In this document: positions 6,259-15,422 of the stretch, in pieces
How the letters are laid out: every line of letters begins with the position of its first letter
Position numbering within the stretch: the first letter of the stretch is position 1
Source: Dehalogenimonas sp. WBC-2
GTDB taxonomy: Bacteria; Chloroflexota; Dehalococcoidia; Dehalococcoidales; Dehalococcoidaceae
Assembly: GCA_001005265.1 (NCBI GenBank)
Contig: CP011392.1
Coordinates: 434,001-498,000, forward strand
Direction of reading: 5' to 3'
Length of the DNA stretch: 64,000 nt
The notes under the pieces: generated by a model
The model's input: the letters and a program-made list of their open reading frames with translations, nothing else
The model's database searches: none
What the model was told of the DNA's origin: nothing
Program-made: the position numbers and the translations under genes

Positions 6259-7128
6259 TCAGCGGTGGTTAGCCAGGTGGTACAGTTTCTGATATGAAGC
6301 CCCAAAATCCGGGTTAGAGGCCTCAAGTTTGGCCTTGAGATTACTCATCCGGTTAACAAATTCATCGCGGCGGCCTTCCCGCACTAATGTTGCCCAATCA
6401 CGGGCCTTGTCACTGAAAAGACTCTCTGTTTCCGGCAGTGACGGCAAATTAAGTTGAAGGGATGCATAAAGGGCAGGATCCTCAGATAGGACGCTTTCAA
6501 CCAGTGTGAGCAGGGCTTTGTAGGTGATGCCGCCAGCGCCATTCATTTCATCTAACCGGTCAAGGCTGACCAGTGCATCCGCGGTGACGATGGCGATAAA
6601 ATGGGCCAGTCCGAGCGAAATGGACATCAGGCGGTCATGTTCTTCCGGCGTAGTGGTGCGGACGCGGGCGCCGCGGGTGGACAGCCAGTCTGATACCTTG
6701 AAGGCCGTTGCCTTCTCAATATCATCGGTAGGGGTGAGAATGAAGTTCTGACCTTTTAGGCTCTCGGCGCCGGGGCCGAAAACAGGGTGGCTGCCGAGGA
6801 CTTTGATACCGGTAAAATACCGGTGCATGATGTCGACCGGTTTCACTTTCACTGAAGTGAGATCGAATACTGTTTGCCCCGAATTGAGGTGGGGAGCGAG
6901 GTTATGGCAGACAGCCTCGAAACTGTCTACCGGAACGGAGATAACAACCACGTCGGCTTCCCCGGCCTTGCCGGTATTGTCGGATGATGAGACTCCTAGT
7001 TCGACCGAAGCGGCGGCCAGTTTGTCCTTGTCGCGGCCGACGATAGTGACCTGGTGCCCTTCGTTCTTTAGCAAACGGGCGAACCAAGCCCCCATTTTGC
7101 CGTAACCACCGATAATTACAATCTTCAT
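6259..7128 (-). CDS. tyrA: Prephenate dehydrogenase
   Basis: 289-residue TyrA-type enzyme that oxidatively decarboxylates prephenate to 4-hydroxyphenylpyruvate, the tyrosine precursor. The N-terminal Rossmann fold begins IVIIGGYGKMGAWFARLLK; VGRDK suggests NADP can be accommodated, but this is only an inference. The SHPVFGPGAESLKGQNFILT segment is the substrate-site signature and EEHDRLMSISLGLAHF contains the conserved His. No ACT domain follows, so tyrosine feedback on this protein is not evident. It is the last gene of the aro operon and starts one base into the pheA stop codon. Confidence 0.93.
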   Translation of the reverse strand: MKIVIIGGYGKMGAWFARLLKNEGHQVTIVGRDKDKLAAASVELGVSSSDNTGKAGEADVVVISVPVDSFEAVCHNLAPHLNSGQTVFDLTSVKVKPVDIMHRYFTGIKVLGSHPVFGPGAESLKGQNFILTPTDDIEKATAFKVSDWLSTRGARVRTTTPEEHDRLMSISLGLAHFIAIVTADALVSLDRLDEMNGAGGITYKALLTLVESVLSEDPALYASLQLNLPSLPETESLFSDKARDWATLVREGRRDEFVNRMSNLKAKLEASNPDFGASYQKLYHLANHR

Positions 7129-8195
7129 TACCGCACTCTTGGGTAGGAGCCTAAAATCTTGATGAATAATACGTGTTCTTCCAGCGCCGGTATGGCGGCC
7201 CGAAAATTTTCATTTTCCCGATGACCTTCAAAGTCGAGGTAGAAATTATACTCCCAAGCTTTTTTACGCGTCGGACGGCTTTCGATCTTGGTAAGATTGA
7301 TCTGGTGTTCAGCCATGACCCGCAGAAACTCGTAGAGTGCCCCGGGACGGTGTTTCACGGCGAATACTACCGATGTTTTGTCATCACCGGATGGCGGCGC
7401 ATCGCGCCGACCCAAGGCGAAGAAACGGGTGTAATTATTGGGATTGTCCTGGATGTCGCGGGCAAGTATTTTCATGCCGTAAATGCTGGCGGCGCGTTCA
7501 GAGGCGATAGCTGCGCCGTCCATGATGCCCTGCTCTTTAATGAGTTTCACACTGCCGGCAGTATCGTAAGTAGGGAGAAGTTCAAAATTGAGCTGACGCA
7601 AAAAATGGCTGCACTGGCCCAGCGCCTGAGGGTGAGAATAGACGCGCCTGATATTGTCCAGTGCGACGCCAGGGTGGGCGATGAGACAGTGATTGACCTT
7701 TAAATTGAGCTCACCTGATACCATAAGCGCCGAATCCAGCATGAGGTCATAGGAACGAGGAATGCTGCCTTCAATGGAGTTTTCCATGGGGATGATGCCG
7801 AACTGGACGTTTCCGCTCTCGACGGTTTTAAAGACATCTTCGAGCGATTCACAGGGTTTGACTACGGCACGGGCACCAAAGTACTGGTAGGCAGCTTCTT
7901 CAGAATAGGCACCGGTTTCACCTTGAAAGGCGACGCTCCTGGTCTGACGCTGGCGTGACAGCTTGATAATGGAGTTATAGAGTTCACTGATCTCATCTCT
8001 GGTCATTCCGCTGGCGGCGGCGACACCGACTACGTGTTCAATGACCATTTTTTCACGCCCGACATCTTGCGGCGGCACTTCACCGGCGGCTTTCTCGTGA
8101 CCGATAGCCTCGGCGATTGACAGACGCTCAGCTAGGAGTTTGACGATATTATCGTCCAGTTTATCAACACGGCGGCGCAGTTCATCCAAACTCAT
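7128..8195 (-). CDS. pheA: Bifunctional chorismate mutase / prephenate dehydratase
   Basis: 355 residues in three parts. An AroQ-type chorismate mutase helix bundle (about 1-90; [20 protein letters not shown]), a prephenate dehydratase domain (about 92-270; [18 protein letters not shown] and a [10 protein letters not shown] motif) and a C-terminal ACT domain with the [20 protein letters not shown] signature that binds phenylalanine in homologues. It converts chorismate through prephenate to phenylpyruvate. Feedback inhibition by Phe is expected from the ACT domain. The gene overlaps both neighbours by 1-4 bases. Confidence 0.95.
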
Positions 8196-9289
8196 TTTAT
8201 CACCCTGCCGATCTTGCCAGCGCGCAAGGCGAAATCAACTAGTACTACCGCGGTCATCGCTTCAGCCACGGCGACGGCACGCGGGACGATGCAGGTATCA
8301 TGACGGCCGCCGACGGCGACCATTGATGGCTCATTTGTCGCCAAGTCTACGCTGCGCTGAAGTTTAGCGATTGACGGGGTCGGCTTTACCGCAAGCCGGG
8401 CCACCAGTGGCATGCCGTTACTGATGCCGCCGAGAATACCGCCAGCATTGTTGCTGGTCGTTCGAATTTGACCGCTGATCACTGTGTAAGCATCGTTGTC
8501 TTCAGAGCCTTTCAGCCGGGATACATTGAAACCGGCGCCGAACTCAACCCCCTTGACTGCCGGTATGGCGAAATAGGCTTTGGCGAGGCAGCCTTCAAGA
8601 GTGTCAAAAACAGGTTCCCCCAGTCCAACGGGTAGACCTTCAACTCTAGCCTCAATAATGCCGCCGACAGAATCGCTATCGCGGCCGGCTTCTTTTATAG
8701 CATCTATCATTTTAATGGCCGTTGCGGCATCGGCACAAGAAACCTCATTTTTTACCATCTCGGAGCGAATTTCGCCGATTTTTTGCGGCGGGGTAGCCTT
8801 AACTCCCGCAATCTCGATAGTATGCGCCACAATCTCAATGCCGATGGTTGACAGTAACTTTTTTGCGACCGCTCCGGCCATGACAAAACCGGCGGTAATG
8901 CGGCCGGAAAACCTCCCTGAACCACGCCAGTCGTGGAAACTGCCGTACTTTTCAAAAGCGGTGAAGTCGGCATGGCCGGGTCTTATGAGATGTTTGACAC
9001 GCTCATATTCCGAAGAATCAATATTGCGATTCCAGATTGCCATACATATCGGTGCGCCGGTGGTATGGTTGTTAAAGACCCCGGAGAAGATTTCAACACG
9101 ATCGTCTTCTTTCCGGGCGGTAGCCAGCGGTCGGTTATGGCCACTTTTCCGTTTGTCGGCCTCCCGCTGGATGTCTTCGACGAGTAATGGAAGCCCGGCC
9201 GGGCAGCCGTCAATAACGATGCCGACGCAGTCGCCGTGGCTCTCTCCGAAACTGGTAATGCGGAATATCTCACCGAGGGAATTATTCAC
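8192..9289 (-). CDS. aroC: Chorismate synthase
   Basis: 365 residues. Converts 5-enolpyruvylshikimate-3-phosphate to chorismate using reduced FMN. Signatures are [19 protein letters not shown] near the N-terminus, [20 protein letters not shown] around residues 98-117 and [19 protein letters not shown] near the C-terminus. The start is a GTG (minus strand, 9287-9289) inside the last codons of aroA, indicating translational coupling. Length is normal for the family. Confidence 0.96.
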
Positions 9290-10535
9290 CTAAATTCACC
9301 TTTCCGCCAGCCCTGGCGAAATCCTGCCAAAAGCAGGGATAGGTTTTTTCAACACATTCAGCAGCCTCAATGACGGTATGGCCGCAGGTGACCGCCAGCA
9401 TGGCGAAGGCCATAGCGATACGGTGGTCGTTATGACTGTTGATAACCGCGCCGTGCGCCTTACCGCCGGTTATGGTCATTCGGTTTGATTCTTCGATTAT
9501 CTCAATGCCCATGTGTTTTAAATTCTCCGCTACAACCGAAACCCGATCAGATTCCTTGAAGCGGGCCCGTTCCAATCCAGTAATTACGCTTGTACCTTCT
9601 GCCACGGCGGCCAGACAAGCTATGGTGGGCAGTAGATCTATTGCTTCATTAAGATCGATTTCTGACGCCCGTAAAGCAGATGGTTTCACCGTAACAGAAC
9701 TACCAGTAACATCAACTGCGGCGCCCATCCGGCGCAAGCAGTTTAACATAAACCGGTCAGCCTGAAAACTGTCAGGTTTGAGGCCTGCGATAGTCATTGA
9801 ACCTGATATTGCGCCCAAACCTAGAAAATATGAAACGCTGGACCAATCACCTTCTACAATATAGTCTACAGGCTGATAGACCTGATGCCCTGCATGAAAT
9901 TGGGTGAGTCCGGCGTTATTTTTAACACTTATGCCGAATTGCCTCAGGCAATCCACAGTCATGCGCAAATAGTCTTTGGATTCAGCTGGGGTGGTCAGCG
10001 TTATCGTCAAACCTTCAGGTGATAACGGGGCCGCTAGAAGCAAACCCGAAATAAATTGGGAACTGACGTTTCCAGGCAATGACACCTGGCTGGCGCGGAA
10101 CCGCCCGCCTCGGACTGTGAGACCGGTATCAGTCATTTTTGTTCCGATGCCTAATTGAGCAAGCGCATCCAGCAGCGGGGTTAGCGGCCGCCGCGCCAGA
10201 CCGGGGGCAAAAGTAATATTGCTTTCACCTTCAAGGATTGCACAAAGCGGCACCAGGAAGCGCAATGTAGCCGCCGACTGTCGGCAATGCAGCGGATGAC
10301 TTGGTGGTTTCAGGTGACCGCCAGACACAATCCAGTTTCCGGGTTGCCGTATGATCCGTGCTCCGAGTTGGGACAACACATCGGCTGCCGCTTCGGTATC
10401 GTCGGAGATCAACGGATTCAAAACGTGACTGATGCCGTCCGCCAAAGCTGCCGCAAAGAGGGCACGGATGGTGTAACTCTTGGAAGGGGGGGCGGTTAAC
10501 ATTCCGGAAAAAAGGCTCTTATCTATTTTGGCTCT
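9282..10535 (-). CDS. aroA: 3-phosphoshikimate 1-carboxyvinyltransferase (EPSP synthase)
   Basis: About 417 residues. Transfers enolpyruvate from PEP to shikimate-3-phosphate. Visible motifs include [20 protein letters not shown] (shikimate-phosphate Lys/Ser/Arg), [14 protein letters not shown] (the family normally has GNAGTxxR here; the shape resembles class II enzymes), [15 protein letters not shown], and KESDRV with [10 protein letters not shown] near the end. I prefer the ATG at 10533-10535 (MRAKIDKS); a TTG 11 codons upstream is also in frame. Its start lies within the end of aroK. Confidence 0.94.
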
Positions 10536-11043
10536 CATTAATATCCAGCTTGTCGATAATTTCTTCAATAACTTCGTTAAAGGGACGATGCCCGGTCATA
10601 ACCGTGATTTCAGCTGACGATTCATATAATGGCCGTCGCTGAGCGTTCATTTCCTCAATCACCTGGTTGCGGTCAGGGCGTTCAAGCAGCGGCCGGTGTT
10701 TACTAAAGGCTAGCCGGTCTTGCAGGGTGGCGGTATCAGCCTCCAGGTATACGATATGTGATGATTCTTTAAGCCGTTCAATATTGGATGGCCGCAGCAC
10801 TACTCCACCGCCGCAGGAGATAACTGAGTGTTCAACGCTTAGTTCTTTTATTACAGCCTCTTCCATATCCCGGAAATATTCCTCTCCTTTTTCCCGGAAA
10901 ATAGCCGGGATGGTCAGGCCGGTGCGTTGTTCAATAAGCCGGTCAATCTCCTTAAACTCCCAGCCTATGCGGAGAGCCAGACGCTTGCCGGCAGAGGATT
11001 TGCCGCATCCCATAAAACCTATCAGAGCAATATTGCTTTTCAT
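10519..11043 (-). CDS. aroK: Shikimate kinase
   Basis: 174 residues. Phosphorylates shikimate at the 3-hydroxyl with ATP. The P-loop is GFMGCGKSSAGKRLA near the N-terminus, EIDRLIEQRTGLTIPAIFREKGEEYFR carries the shikimate-binding Asp and Arg, CGGGVVLRP is the Walker-B-like loop and RPLLERPD is the LID region. Slightly longer than the usual 160-170 residues. Overlaps aroE by 4 bases and aroA by 17. Confidence 0.95.
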   Translation of the reverse strand: MKSNIALIGFMGCGKSSAGKRLALRIGWEFKEIDRLIEQRTGLTIPAIFREKGEEYFRDMEEAVIKELSVEHSVISCGGGVVLRPSNIERLKESSHIVYLEADTATLQDRLAFSKHRPLLERPDRNQVIEEMNAQRRPLYESSAEITVMTGHRPFNEVIEEIIDKLDINESQNR

Positions 11044-11867
11044 AGCAGCGCTTCATTCACCACCTGCCGCATCACCTGCCGCGGGGCGTTTTGACCGGTC
11101 CATAACTCGAAAGCCAATGCTCCCTGCTCGATGAGCATCTCTAAGCCACCGATTACGGCACAACCTGCGGCCTCCGCCTCTTTTAACAACCGGGTCTGCC
11201 GAGGGTGATACACTGTGTCGAAGACCGTAATTCCAGCCCCCAACATACCCGAAGGCAGCGGACTGGGGTCGTCAGGTGTCATGCCGAGACTGGTGGCGTT
11301 TACCAGCAATGAGGCACCAGCGAGAGCTGCACGGTAACCGTCTTGGGTGCTCTCAAAGGCGGTAGCACCTATCTCTCGGGCCATTACTTCCGCCGTTGAG
11401 AGAGAACGGTTGATGATGGATATAGAGGCTCCGGCTTGATTCAAAGCGAAGGCGACAGCCCGTGCGACACCACCCGCTCCCAGGACAACGGTTTTTTGTC
11501 CTTTGGGTTCAAAGCCGTAATTTCCTAAGGCGGCCAGAAAACCGGTGGCATCGGTGTTATAGCCTTTGAGCTTACCGTCTTCATTTATTATGGTATTGAC
11601 AGCCCCGATGCGCTTTGCCTGTGTATCAACCTCGTCCAGCATCGGCAGTACGGCTTTTTTATGAGGGATGGTGATATTTACGCCGCGCAGTCCCAACCCT
11701 TTTATTCCCTCAATCGCCTTGCTGAGACTAGGGGCACTTACCCGAAACGCCAGGTAGCGATAATTTAATCCGAGGGCATGGAAAGCGGCATTATGCATCA
11801 GCGGCGAAAGAGAGTGTGCCACCGGATCACCGAGCAGACCTACCAGTTTGGTATTGGTGTTTATCAT
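11040..11867 (-). CDS. aroE: Shikimate dehydrogenase
   Basis: 275 residues. Reduces 3-dehydroshikimate to shikimate with NADPH. The substrate half has LLGDPVAHSLSPLMHNAAF and NITIPHKKAVLPMLDEV with the catalytic Lys; the cofactor half has VLGAGGVARAVAFALNQAGA followed by INRSLS. NTDATGF is the invariant Asp-containing loop. Overlaps aroD by 4 bases (ATGA type). Confidence 0.95.
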   Translation of the reverse strand: MINTNTKLVGLLGDPVAHSLSPLMHNAAFHALGLNYRYLAFRVSAPSLSKAIEGIKGLGLRGVNITIPHKKAVLPMLDEVDTQAKRIGAVNTIINEDGKLKGYNTDATGFLAALGNYGFEPKGQKTVVLGAGGVARAVAFALNQAGASISIINRSLSTAEVMAREIGATAFESTQDGYRAALAGASLLVNATSLGMTPDDPSPLPSGMLGAGITVFDTVYHPRQTRLLKEAEAAGCAVIGGLEMLIEQGALAFELWTGQNAPRQVMRQVVNEALL

Positions 11868-12517
11868 TTTGTAATCAGACCTAAGATATCTGATAACTGG
11901 GCAACTGTCATTTGCCCTGAGGCTGATTGGAGGTTGTCCTGGATGGCTGCATAAGTAAACTCCGCCCCGGCTAGCGGTGCCAGCACCCGGCTCAATACTC
12001 CTGTCTCACCCATACAGAAACAAACAAGCCTGTTATCCGGAAATGCTGAGTACAAACGGAGCAACTTGAGATTGTCATCGGTTGATTTGGCGGTGGTCAC
12101 CAACTTACAGATGTCAGCTCCGGCGGCGATTTGCCTTTCAATAATGTCTTTTAACTCATCATATGGCGGTGTCCCGGTGAATTCGTGGTGAGAAATGAGG
12201 CAGCGCGCCTTCTTTTTAACCAGTTCAACCATTTTCCCTAGGTTCGGCGTGTCCAGTTCCAGGTCGATAATGGCTGCTCCCATACCCAGCGCCTTCAGGA
12301 GTTCCTCCTTGCGCCGTGCCTCTGAGCCCTGCCACGCGCCGCCTTCAGCAACCAGGCGATTGCAGGCGACCCATGGTTTTTTGAGACTGTTTGCGACCGC
12401 GACCCAATGATCTCCGATAAGGTCAATCCGGATCTCAAAAAGACTAACCGAAGTCAGAGCCTTTTCAATCGCCTCCTGATCTGATGAGGTGATAACGGCG
12501 CAGATAGGTACATTCAT
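11864..12517 (-). CDS. aroD: 3-dehydroquinate dehydratase, type I
   Basis: 217 residues, type I (Schiff-base) dehydroquinase that forms 3-dehydroshikimate. FEIRIDLI carries the conserved EIRxD entry, CLISHHEFTGTPP the catalytic His region and ICKLVTTAKSTDDNLKLL the Schiff-base Lys. It ends with the typical SASGQMTVAQLSDIL. Type II enzymes are shorter and unrelated. Start is an ATG overlapping the aroB stop. Confidence 0.94.
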   Translation of the reverse strand: MNVPICAVITSSDQEAIEKALTSVSLFEIRIDLIGDHWVAVANSLKKPWVACNRLVAEGGAWQGSEARRKEELLKALGMGAAIIDLELDTPNLGKMVELVKKKARCLISHHEFTGTPPYDELKDIIERQIAAGADICKLVTTAKSTDDNLKLLRLYSAFPDNRLVCFCMGETGVLSRVLAPLAGAEFTYAAIQDNLQSASGQMTVAQLSDILGLITK

Positions 12518-13590
12518 GTCGCTAAGACCTCTGCGACGGCGTGGGGGTCTATATCATTTTTAATAGTAACGCTGCCGATTTCGCTTGGCAGAATAAATTT
12601 AAGTTTACTATCGGTAATTTTCTTGTCGTGTTGCATGGCGCGAGTAATAGCATCCGGGTGTTTAAACGGCATGGAAACCGGCAATCCCGCTGCGGCGATG
12701 AGCCTTAAAATGCGTTCCAAGCTTGTGATGTCGAGAAGTTCAAGCCGGTTAGCCAGTCTGGCGGCTAAGGCCATACCTATGGCCACCGATGTTCCATGGC
12801 TGATCTTGAAACCGGAGACACACTCGATGGCATGGCCGAAGGTATGACCGAAATTAAGAATGTGGCGTATCCCTATGTCGCGTTCGTCTTTTTCAACAAT
12901 CCGGGCTTTGACCTCAGCGGCGCGGTGCGCGGCATAGGTCAAAGCGCCGATGTCCCTGTCCAGTAAGACTGGCATACTGCCTTCAAGGAAGCTGAACAGT
13001 TCCGTATCCTCGATTATGGCACATTTGATAACTTCGGCCAGACCGTTCCGTATCTCTTTCATCGGCAGTGTTTTCAATGCTGCAGTGTCGCTTATCACCA
13101 AGCGCGGCTGATGAAAGGTTCCGGCCATATTCTTGAGTTTTCCGGTATTCACCGCGACCTTGCCACCGATGCTGGAATCAACCTGAGCTAACAGAGTGGT
13201 CGGGATCTGCACAAAAGGTACGCCGCGTTGGAAGGTGGCGGCCACAAAGCCGGCCAGATCTCCCACTACCCCGCCGCCCAGAGCCAGAATAGGGGTGTTC
13301 CGCTCGGCACGCCGGTTGGCTAGACCTTCATAGAGCTTTCCGGCGACAACCAGGGATTTGCTGGCTTCGCCATCGGAAACGACCATCATGCTGGCTTCAA
13401 TATCCGCCGCTTTGAGAGTTTGCATCAGGCAATCGCCGTAGAGCCGGGCGACAGTCTGATTGGTGATTACCATCAACCGCCTGCTGATGCCATGGTGTCC
13501 CAGGAGGCCGGGTACCTGTGTCAGCAGTCCTTCACCCATGTAGATGGGATAACTGCGTTCCCCGAGGTTAATATGTATCTGGTAAGTCAC
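12514..13590 (-). CDS. aroB: 3-dehydroquinate synthase
   Basis: 358 residues. Cyclises DAHP to 3-dehydroquinate using NAD and a divalent metal. ALGGGVVGDLAGFVAATFQRG is the NAD loop, PTTLLAQVDSSIGGKVAVN holds the substrate-binding Asp and Lys, and the metal ligands lie in NGLAEVIK, LNFGHTFGHAIE and HGTSVAIGM. It lies 4 bases after aroF and overlaps aroD by 4. Confidence 0.96.
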   Translation of the reverse strand: MTYQIHINLGERSYPIYMGEGLLTQVPGLLGHHGISRRLMVITNQTVARLYGDCLMQTLKAADIEASMMVVSDGEASKSLVVAGKLYEGLANRRAERNTPILALGGGVVGDLAGFVAATFQRGVPFVQIPTTLLAQVDSSIGGKVAVNTGKLKNMAGTFHQPRLVISDTAALKTLPMKEIRNGLAEVIKCAIIEDTELFSFLEGSMPVLLDRDIGALTYAAHRAAEVKARIVEKDERDIGIRHILNFGHTFGHAIECVSGFKISHGTSVAIGMALAARLANRLELLDITSLERILRLIAAAGLPVSMPFKHPDAITRAMQHDKKITDSKLKFILPSEIGSVTIKNDIDPHAVAEVLAT

Positions 13591-13594
13591 GGCC

Positions 13595-14644
13595 TTATTT
13601 TACGGCAATCCGGCGTAACTGTCTTGCTACGCCGATGATCTCTTTGAGTTCAGCAGGGCTAATCATCTGAGAGGCATCGACGAGGGCTTCTTCCGGACGG
13701 TCATGGACCTCAATCATCAGACCGGAAGCGCCTGCAGCGATTGAAGCCAGACTCATCGAGCGGATGAGGTCACGGCGTCCGGTGGCGTGGCTGGGGTCAA
13801 CAATAATAGGAAGGAAAGTTTCCTTTTGCACCACCGGCACTGCCGCCAGATCAAGCATATACCGGGTGAAGTTTTTGCCTTTACCAACCGGCACGATACC
13901 GCGTTCGCAAAGGATGATATCCTTGTTGCCCTCAGCGGCGATGTATTCAGCGAAACACAGGAACTCCTCGATCGAAGCACCGAAATGTCGTTTGAACATT
14001 ATAGGTAACTTCTTCCGCGCGGCTGCCTGAAGTAAATCCTGATCATACATATTACGGGAACCGATCTGGATGATATCAACGTATTGGCTGACCAGTTCTA
14101 CTTGAGCTTCGCCGCGGACCTCGGTTACCACCGGCATACCGAAGGCCTGGCCGGCTTCTTTGAGCCATGTTAAAGCTTCAATGGCTTCTTCATTTCCAGC
14201 AGAGCCGAGACCTTGAAAGGAATGGACACTGGAGCGCGGTTTGAAGACTCCGCCGCGGAGGACATGAGCGCCAGCCTTCTTTACCTGTTCGGCGATGCGA
14301 AACAGAGACTCGCGGCTTTCCACGGCGCAGGGGCCGGCGATGAACACCGGCTCTTCAACACCGAGTTCGACCGGTCCGATCTTGACGATATGCGTGCTGG
14401 TCTCGCCATATGCGTTGGAATACTCCCTGTTGATCAGCTTGTAGGGCGCCTCAATCATTCTAGCCTCCTTTACTCCGGGAAGGGCTGCCAGGTGGGCAAA
14501 ATCCACTTTGCGTTCATCACCGACGAGACCGATAACGGTGAGGTACTGGCCGTGCGATACATCAGTTCGCAGACCAACTCTGCTCACTTCATCGATGACG
14601 TGCTGGACCTGCTCCGGTGTGGCGTCCTTTTTCATGATGATCAT
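13595..14644 (-). CDS. aroF: 3-deoxy-7-phosphoheptulonate (DAHP) synthase with N-terminal regulatory domain
   Basis: 349 residues, type I-beta DAHP synthase that condenses PEP and erythrose-4-phosphate, the entry step of aromatic synthesis. Residues 1-70 form a ferredoxin-like/ACT-like domain (VIDEVSRVGLRTDVSHGQYL) like that of the Thermotoga enzyme, where it mediates feedback by aromatic amino acids. The barrel follows with FIAGPCAVESRE, LRGGVFKPRSSVHSFQG, MFKRHFG and IVDPSHATGRR. It is the first gene of the operon and lies about 95 bases downstream of an aromatic-codon leader peptide, so control is probably both allosteric and transcriptional. Confidence 0.95.
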   Translation of the reverse strand: MIIMKKDATPEQVQHVIDEVSRVGLRTDVSHGQYLTVIGLVGDERKVDFAHLAALPGVKEARMIEAPYKLINREYSNAYGETSTHIVKIGPVELGVEEPVFIAGPCAVESRESLFRIAEQVKKAGAHVLRGGVFKPRSSVHSFQGLGSAGNEEAIEALTWLKEAGQAFGMPVVTEVRGEAQVELVSQYVDIIQIGSRNMYDQDLLQAAARKKLPIMFKRHFGASIEEFLCFAEYIAAEGNKDIILCERGIVPVGKGKNFTRYMLDLAAVPVVQKETFLPIIVDPSHATGRRDLIRSMSLASIAAGASGLMIEVHDRPEEALVDASQMISPAELKEIIGVARQLRRIAVK

Positions 14645-14679: not shown

Positions 14680-14704
14680 AAAAAATCCTCCGTCTGGGAG
14701 GATT
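14680..14704 (-). terminator. Intrinsic terminator of the aro operon attenuator
   Basis: On the minus strand AATCCTCC, loop CAGAC, GGAGGATT and a run of six Ts. It sits between the leader peptide stop (14739) and aroF (14644). The leader codons GGG AGG (14757-14762) can pair with CCTCCC (14696-14701), the 5' arm of this hairpin, giving a mutually exclusive antiterminator; a GTGCC-TGCAA-GGCAC hairpin (14767-14781) upstream would be the pause or protector structure. Confidence 0.8.
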
Positions 14705-14738
14705 ACTGCCTGCTTGTTGCTATGTGATCTAGGTGCTC

Positions 14739-14822
14739 TTACGCAATAACGCCGTACCTCCCTGACGTGCCTTGCAGGCACCAGGTAAAGTAATAATAGG
14801 CGTAAAAGCTTTGAGCTACCAT
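14739..14822 (-). CDS. Aromatic amino acid leader peptide of the aro operon
   Basis: A 27-codon ORF beginning MVAQSFYAYYYFTW and ending GRYGVIA. Between codons 6 and 14 there are two Phe, four Tyr and one Trp codons, with one more Tyr at codon 23, far above chance. It precedes a terminator and then aroF, the standard layout of ribosome-mediated attenuation. Starved of charged Phe, Tyr or Trp tRNA, the ribosome would stall over the GTGCC hairpin and free GGGAGG to break the terminator. No good ribosome-binding site is in the predicted transcript: the promoter's predicted start point is 0-1 bases before the ATG, so initiation may be leaderless. Confidence 0.85.
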   Translation of the reverse strand: MVAQSFYAYYYFTWCLQGTSGRYGVIA

Positions 14823-14829
14823 TACCGGA

Positions 14830-14858
14830 AGAATATCACCTAGCTCTGGGGTTGTCAA
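14830..14858 (-). promoter_or_regulatory. Promoter of the aro operon
   Basis: Minus-strand TTGACA (14853-14858), a 17-base spacer and TATTCT (14830-14835). Counting seven bases past the -10 gives a start point at about 14823, one base before the ATG of the leader peptide. The AGGTGA that might have served as a ribosome site lies inside the promoter spacer. Confidence 0.7.
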
Positions 14859-14885
14859 GGAGTTTCCAGTCATCGCCGGAAATTG

Positions 14886-14919
14886 ACAGAGGTGACGTTA
14901 AGACTAACGTCACCTCTGT
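14886..14919 (-). terminator. Hairpin terminator after bacterioferritin
   Basis: Perfect 15-bp inverted repeat (ACAGAGGTGACGTTA on the plus strand at 14886-14900, its complement at 14905-14919) with a 4-base loop, 36 bases past the stop of the bacterioferritin gene. The U-tract is poor on both strands, but the stem strength and position between bfr and the aro promoter fit a terminator. Confidence 0.65.
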
Positions 14920-14954
14920 GAAGTTTTAAGTGGAGCGGAATAGATGACTGCCTG

Positions 14955-15422
14955 TTATTCCACTTTAGTAGACAGGAAAACCTGGATACCCATCTGGGAA
15001 ATCTGGTCCTGAATACCCTCGATCTCATCGATATGAGAATCTTCATCATCCAGAATAGCTTGCAGAATATCCCTGGTGGCGTAGTCCACCGCCTGAGCGC
15101 ACAGGACGATAGCTGCGTTGTAGTTCTTGATGGCACCGGCTTCAGCGATACGATCATTTTCAAACATCTTGGGAACATCAGCGCCGATGAAGATCTTATT
15201 GTAGTTGCTGACGACAGGGATGCCTTCCAAGAAAAGGATCCGCCCGATTAGTTTTTCGGCGTGCTTCATTTCGGTGATGGCGCGTTTTTCGATGGCTTTG
15301 TGGAGTTTGTCGTAGTTCCAGTTGTCGCACATCTCAGAGTGGACCATGTACTGGTTGATGGCAGTCAGTTCATCGGCCAGCAAGGAGTTCAAGACTTCAA
15401 TTACCTTGGGATCGCCTTTCAT
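14955..15422 (-). CDS. bfr: Bacterioferritin
   Basis: 155 residues, four-helix ferritin that oxidises Fe(II) and stores it as a mineral in a 24-mer; heme sits between subunit pairs. The diiron ligands are visible: Glu18 (ADELT), Glu51 and His54 (EMKHAEKL), Glu95, and Glu128 with His131 (DDEDSHIDE). Met52, the axial heme ligand that separates bacterioferritin from plain ferritin, is present. The start ATG follows AGGAGG with two bases between. It is monocistronic, with its own promoter and terminator. Confidence 0.93.
   Translation of the reverse strand: MKGDPKVIEVLNSLLADELTAINQYMVHSEMCDNWNYDKLHKAIEKRAITEMKHAEKLIGRILFLEGIPVVSNYNKIFIGADVPKMFENDRIAEAGAIKNYNAAIVLCAQAVDYATRDILQAILDDEDSHIDEIEGIQDQISQMGIQVFLSTKVE

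Follow-up and report, generated by a model that had tools for sequence, protein, structure and literature searches.

A probable Phe/Tyr-sensing leader-peptide attenuator of the shikimate operon and related leaders in Dehalococcoidia

The window analysed here, a stretch of 64 kb (64,000 nucleotides) from Dehalogenimonas sp. WBC-2, carries on its minus strand a nine-gene operon for the synthesis of aromatic amino acids, whose genes are contiguous or overlapping from position 14644 down to 6259. Pfam and NCBIfam profile matches identify them in order of transcription as aroF, DAHP synthase with a ferredoxin-like regulatory domain (13595–14644; PF00793, PF18152), aroB, 3-dehydroquinate synthase (12514–13590; TIGR01357), aroD, type I 3-dehydroquinase (11864–12517; PF01487), aroE, shikimate dehydrogenase (11040–11867; TIGR00507), aroK, shikimate kinase (10519–11043; PF01202), aroA, EPSP synthase (9282–10568; TIGR01356), aroC, chorismate synthase (8192–9289; TIGR00033), pheA, chorismate mutase-prephenate dehydratase with an ACT domain (7128–8195; PF01817, PF00800, PF01842), and tyrA, prephenate dehydrogenase (6259–7128; NF006409). 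The original prediction had described an operon leading from DAHP to prephenate. The common pathway is indeed complete, but by its gene content the operon continues through pheA and tyrA and extends to the committed Phe and Tyr steps. The trp genes lie outside the aro operon. In the same genome trpE (G000:C1:538462) is located behind a T-box recognised by an Rfam search (RF00230, 103.8 bits), an arrangement already known for Dehalococcoides (PMC2494555).

The region in front of aroF, also read on the minus strand, contains a promoter-like site with a −35 hexamer TTGACA (14853–14858), a spacer of 17 nt and a −10 hexamer TATTCT (14830–14835) preceded by TG. The −10 box ends 7 nt 5′ of the ATG (14822) of a small open reading frame, and this strong site, recognised from the sequence only, is kept within the family. 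Since the distance from the −10 box to the ATG is 7–9 nt and a Shine-Dalgarno sequence is absent in 11/11 genomes of the family, the mRNA of the leader probably has no or hardly any 5′ untranslated region. Across all leaders scored, a promoter-like site was found 5′ of the leader ORF in 82 of 82. The ORF itself, MVAQSFYAYYYFTWCLQGTSGRYGVIA, comprises 27 codons (14739–14822) with the TAA ending at 14739. Its regulatory codons 6–14 (F Y A Y Y Y F T W; 14781–14807) include seven aromatic ones at positions 6, 7, 9, 10, 11, 12 and 14, namely 2 Phe, 4 Tyr and 1 Trp. Among the 824 ATG ORFs of 12–45 codons in the window it is the sole case with at least six aromatic codons in nine, represented by two nested starts. 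With homologues the result is similar: 62 of 83 real upstream regions reach six aromatic codons in nine, compared to 4 of 1660 shuffled ones.

Within and behind the ORF three alternative helices can be assigned. Hairpin 1:2 (14767–14781 in total), supported by folding and covariation, is formed by GTGCC (14781–14777) and GGCAC (14771–14767) and sequesters region 2. Region 2, GTCAGGGAGG (14757–14766), is the 5′ arm of an antiterminator and holds the motif GGGAGG at 14762–14757; it pairs with 14701–14692, as indicated by covariation. Its partner, region 3 (CCTCCCAGAC, 14692–14701), was assigned by pairing and covariation and is at the same time the antiterminator 3′ arm and the 5′ arm plus loop of an intrinsic terminator. 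This terminator, AATCCTCC-CAGAC-GGAGGATT followed by a T-run (region 3:4; 14680–14704, from sequence reading), sits between the leader ORF and aroF as the first gene. Its arms lie at 14704–14697 and 14691–14684 and show the pattern CCTCC..GGAGG, then T6. The leader RNA folds better than its dinucleotide shuffles (z −2.8). Promoter, ORF, hairpin, GGGAGG, terminator and aroF were all encountered on the minus strand where the original prediction had placed them, and its count of the aromatic codons was right. Beyond the promoter a near-perfect palindrome, AGAGGTGACGTTA..TAACGTCACCTCT, occupies window positions 14880–14925 directly after the bacterioferritin gene (14955–15422); it is an ordinary bidirectional terminator-like repeat.

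To follow the leader in other organisms, aroF relatives were drawn from 100 related genomes. At 65 of 65 operon-type aroF loci in Dehalococcoidales with readable upstream DNA, this DNA contains a leader ORF with aromatic codons together with a G-run and a terminator of the CCTCCC..GGGAGG type; the terminators of two loci (L020 and L035) were assigned by eye. In the class outside this order, aromatic leader and terminator were present at 18/18 loci from 14 genomes. The conservation in close relatives on which the prediction had been staked is therefore observed throughout. DAHP synthase paralogues that do not head the operon (L068–L072) lack an aromatic leader. The aroF upstream regions contain 5–8 aromatic codons in nine in 16/16 named Dehalococcoidia records vs 0–5 in 62 homologues of other groups, and among the homologues outside Dehalococcoidia no such combination of leader and terminator was found, with the exception of three weaker unrelated ORFs. 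Upstream ORFs with WWWW (deltaproteobacterial) and FSFGRFFFGF (Desulfobacteraceae) precede two DAHP synthase homologues from outside the class (L351 and L357) and are possibly independently arisen leaders. Across the Dehalococcoidia leaders the aromatic codons are maintained in number but differ in identity and position, and the spacer is divergent. The G-run is found in differing reading frames between clades, which argues that it is maintained as RNA.

Covariation of the helices was tested on an alignment of 56 leaders. Hairpin 1:2 is paired to 92% and exhibits 28 double-change cells compared to 7.8 in shuffled alignments. For the antiterminator, the leader strand GC(T/C)(T/C)GGGAGG and the terminator arm plus loop, CCTCCC(A/G)(A/G)GC, are paired to 87% overall. 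Four of these pairs involve the loop and are unconstrained by the terminator; they show 31 double-change cells vs 13 shuffled and a score of 0.386 vs 0.213 shuffled, with slid controls at or below 0.166. Within one family the loop pairings GCTTGG/CCAAGC, GCCTGG/CCAGGC and GTCTGG/CCAGAC occur side by side. The mean duplex energy between leader and terminator is −18.8 kcal/mol for native combinations and −15.4 kcal/mol for swapped ones (0/5000 permutations); if swaps are made within families only, −18.3 is obtained for native vs −17.4 for swapped combinations (0/5000 permutations). This within-family permutation was used in place of a tree-based independent-pair sign test of the loop covariation, which with only 5 supported pairs is underpowered. 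Because the loop occurs in two registers, the terminator pair counts on alignment A1 are indistinct, and the argument rests on the leader:terminator pairing. Judged by this covariation, a mutually exclusive antiterminator is supported. The proposed pairing of GGG AGG with the terminator 5′ arm is supported, and the antiterminator uses the terminator loop in addition.

Folding in silico of the RNA up to the terminator loop gives the window leader an antiterminator probability of 0.99 with a ribosome stalled in the aromatic run and of 0.006 without a ribosome. With the ribosome at the stop codon, the terminator reaches a probability of 0.94. The same calculations predict an early antiterminator for 77–82 of 82 leaders with a stalled ribosome and the terminator for 82 of 82 with the ribosome at the stop. 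In 60/82 leaders the early antiterminator is favoured even if no ribosome is present, so that the basal, untranslated state probably differs between species; in the window leader region 2 is well sequestered by hairpin 1:2. In silico, the full-length terminator usually prevails at equilibrium, except when the stall occurs late in the run, which means that kinetics must matter.

Taken together, these data make it very probable that a ribosome-mediated transcription attenuator sensing Phe and Tyr controls the aro-pheA-tyrA operon. Conservation and covariation across Dehalococcoidia lend strong support to the original proposal of leader-peptide attenuation for the complete aro operon. From anatomy, gene content, conservation, helix covariation and in silico folding we infer the actual stalling, the termination and the relevant charged tRNAs as follows. 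RNA polymerase would start at about 14823, followed by a ribosome translating the leader peptide. With poorly charged Phe- or Tyr-tRNA the ribosome would stall in codons 6–14 and open hairpin 1:2. The freed GTC-GGGAGG (14766–14757) could then pair with CCTCCC-GAC (14701–14692), that is, with the terminator 5′ arm and loop, before the terminator 3′ arm is synthesised, and transcription would proceed into aroF-B-D-E-K-A-C-pheA-tyrA. With ample charging the ribosome would reach the stop codon, which lies 15 nt beyond GGGAGG, and mask the GGGAGG strand; the terminator would form and transcription would halt.

A conserved hairpin and terminator would also be expected if a metabolite or protein bound the leader RNA directly, in the manner of a riboswitch or of TRAP, the small ORF being incidental, and translation of the leader is itself a prediction. 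However, the number of aromatic codons is kept although codons and positions shift and the spacer diverges, and outside the ORF and the stems no conserved aptamer-like core is present. An Rfam search of the whole 64 kb window returned no match at the gathering threshold, a permissive search only chance matches, and Rfam matches were likewise absent at the other leaders tested. Direct binding is therefore rejected as very unlikely. Even less credit, practically none, can be given to a chance ORF ahead of the ordinary terminator of an upstream gene without any regulation. A terminator is present, and the upstream bacterioferritin gene ends in a separate palindromic one, but the leader promoter is located after the latter; together with the class-wide conservation and the covariation this led us to reject it as well.

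With attenuation as the preferred reading, the question is which amino acids are sensed. Phe and Tyr codons are present in 83/83 leaders (means of 2.6 Phe and 3.8 Tyr) and match pheA and tyrA, the end branches of the operon. The original prediction held that all three aromatic amino acids are sensed, and the Phe and Tyr part of it is likely. For an equal role of Trp, one can point to the Trp codon in the run of the window leader, to its occurrence in 65 of 83 leaders and to DAHP synthase, which feeds Trp as well. However, Trp lies inside the core run in only 48/83, is absent from 18/83 and is missing in the leaders of three Dehalococcoides-type genomes (e.g. MLNVKSFKNYYYFTKTSLLGR). Where FTW is usual, some leaders have a Gly or Glu codon instead of Trp and still retain the GCGC stem behind it, so TGG may partly be kept as RNA. 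The 18 leaders free of Trp codons, together with the separate T-box in front of trpE, make Trp sensing doubtful, and we consider equal sensing of all three unlikely. Slightly less probable again is a switch that in practice responds to Phe only, with Tyr codons near-silent. For this speak some almost purely Phe-containing ligase leaders (family f46; L215) and the AroR leader of Corynebacterium glutamicum, which contains Phe-Tyr-Phe and is described as responding to Phe and not to Tyr (PMC11802643, citing Neshat 2014). Against it, Tyr codons are universal and commoner than Phe in aroF leaders (mean 3.8 vs 2.6), and the hisC leaders of family f32 are mainly Tyr. Phe and Tyr are thus likely the conserved signals, with Trp being optional and at most auxiliary.

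The leaders trpL, pheL and pheST of E. coli each sense one amino acid and control terminal branches. They share with the Dehalococcoidia leader the end-product codons, the exclusive helices 1:2, 2:3 and 3:4 and the T-run terminator. In contrast, the Dehalococcoidia leader controls the whole common pathway, its antiterminator includes the terminator loop, and its stop codon follows region 2. Multivalent attenuators are known from enterobacteria with thr (Thr, Ile) and ilvGMEDA (Ile, Val, Leu); these likewise sense several end products by one leader, but in different pathways. The Rfam model Phe_leader (RF01859), with a threshold of 55 bits, gives the aro leader 15.4 bits, which is chance level, and the T-box covariance model (RF00230) gives no match at the aro leader. 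The T-box on trpE of the same genome also senses charged tRNA for an aromatic branch, but binds the tRNA directly. One genome would then divide the labour between a T-box for Trp and a translated leader for Phe/Tyr.

Leader control of a DAHP synthase gene is already known. For C. glutamicum, two reports describe aroR as a Phe-Tyr-Phe leader of the DAHP synthase gene aroF acting by ribosome-mediated attenuation (PMC4046766; PMC11802643 citing Neshat 2014). Compared to the Dehalococcoidia leader, it has three aromatic codons, is reported to respond to Phe but not Tyr and belongs to another phylum. The uORFC-13-1 motif 5′ of aroF in Acholeplasma is a predicted uORF with Phe codon(s) followed by a terminator; at least one Phe codon derives from a U-run, and the motif is confined to Acholeplasma and environmental sequences and occurs only 5′ of aroF (PMC8632094). 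The open-access literature searched yielded no prior description in Chloroflexi and no leader-peptide attenuator of aromatic synthesis for this phylum. The Dehalococcoidia leader family appears to be undescribed, as do its mixed Phe/Tyr sensing at the head of a complete aro-pheA-tyrA operon, an antiterminator that includes the terminator loop and the regulon of several operons discussed below. The leader would represent a deeply conserved and testable case in which a single leader peptide senses two or three amino acids and controls an entire pathway.

Among 294 genomes of Dehalococcoidia, a covariance model built from the aro leaders (R1) matched in 60, many with more than one match. A sample of 400 phylum genomes gave matches inside this class only. 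Where the automatic assignment of leader or terminator failed at secondary loci, e.g. at L179, L188, L191, L198 and L201, it was replaced by inspection by eye. The genome studied here contains a second match outside the window (G000:C1:927389-927519:-; L177/L217; leader MYLGRFSYTFAFTKRTRVRLGGSKIN). The operon behind it encodes an AMP-dependent (acyl-CoA) ligase, LivH, a LivM-like protein, a substrate-binding protein (LivK), LivF, a PaaK-like ligase and a LivG-like protein, and is a candidate for aryl-acid uptake and activation. This combination of leader and operon type recurs in other members of the genus, in genomes of the Dehalococcoides type and across numerous other families. From 40 first genes fetched behind leaders, 26 fall into one AMP-ligase cluster, two of them being of the Ior-linked type. 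At L231 (G048) the leader heads a ligase with IorA (801 bits) and IorB (209 bits), at L247 (G068) a ligase with a TRAP transporter and IorA; by their gene arrangement these two loci tie the leader genetically to aryl-acid/2-oxo-acid interconversion. IorA also adjoins ligase leaders divergently at less than 0.4 kb (G008–G010) or within about 3 kb (G025, G026, G031). Further leader-headed operons combine a TRAP transporter and ligase (G045) or a symporter and ligase (G081), or contain an aminotransferase (G161), an opine-type dehydrogenase with a PF04392 ABC transporter (G015) or other DAHP synthase types.

If the attenuator is opened by Phe/Tyr starvation, its operons should supply Phe/Tyr. Ligase, transporter and Ior would fit uptake of putative aryl-acid substrates, their activation and reductive carboxylation. 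For Methanococcus maripaludis, a reductive carboxylation route to aromatic 2-oxo acids has been described (Porat et al., cited in PMC4162585). The rival reading is that IorAB runs oxidatively, as in amino-acid fermentation (PMC5817080). An attenuator regulon for aromatic amino acids is likely, with aryl-acid salvage as a candidate arm of it. We give roughly even chances to a class-wide Dehalococcoidia regulon that unites the shikimate/Phe/Tyr operon, hisC and an aryl-acid route with transport, acyl-CoA ligase/PaaK and reductive carboxylation by indolepyruvate:ferredoxin oxidoreductase. The R1 model serves as a genome-wide functional label. It would connect Phe/Tyr supply with ligase/transporter operons that lack annotation, among them one in the genome studied here and those of organohalide respirers of the Dehalococcoides type, and a hidden aryl-acid salvage route becomes directly testable.

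Tyr-rich leaders (e.g. YYYYYYYYAFTGR) were found ahead of hisC or hisC-holding operons (L194, L195, L204, L208, L197/L260), in some cases with hisB, which suggests that HisC doubles as aromatic aminotransferase at these loci. Ligase leaders of several families (L206, L193, L202, L205) show only an FxFT motif with 2–3 Phe after a conserved ERTK-like stretch and may sense differently from the aroF leaders. In family f32 the leaders L236, L253 and L254 precede genes for a CoA-transferase, a 2-hydroxyacyl-CoA dehydratase, BadFG-type activators and a GlcD/GlcF-like oxidase, and the CoA-transferase/dehydratase operon resembles, from its gene content, a phenyllactate-type pathway that could run in either direction.
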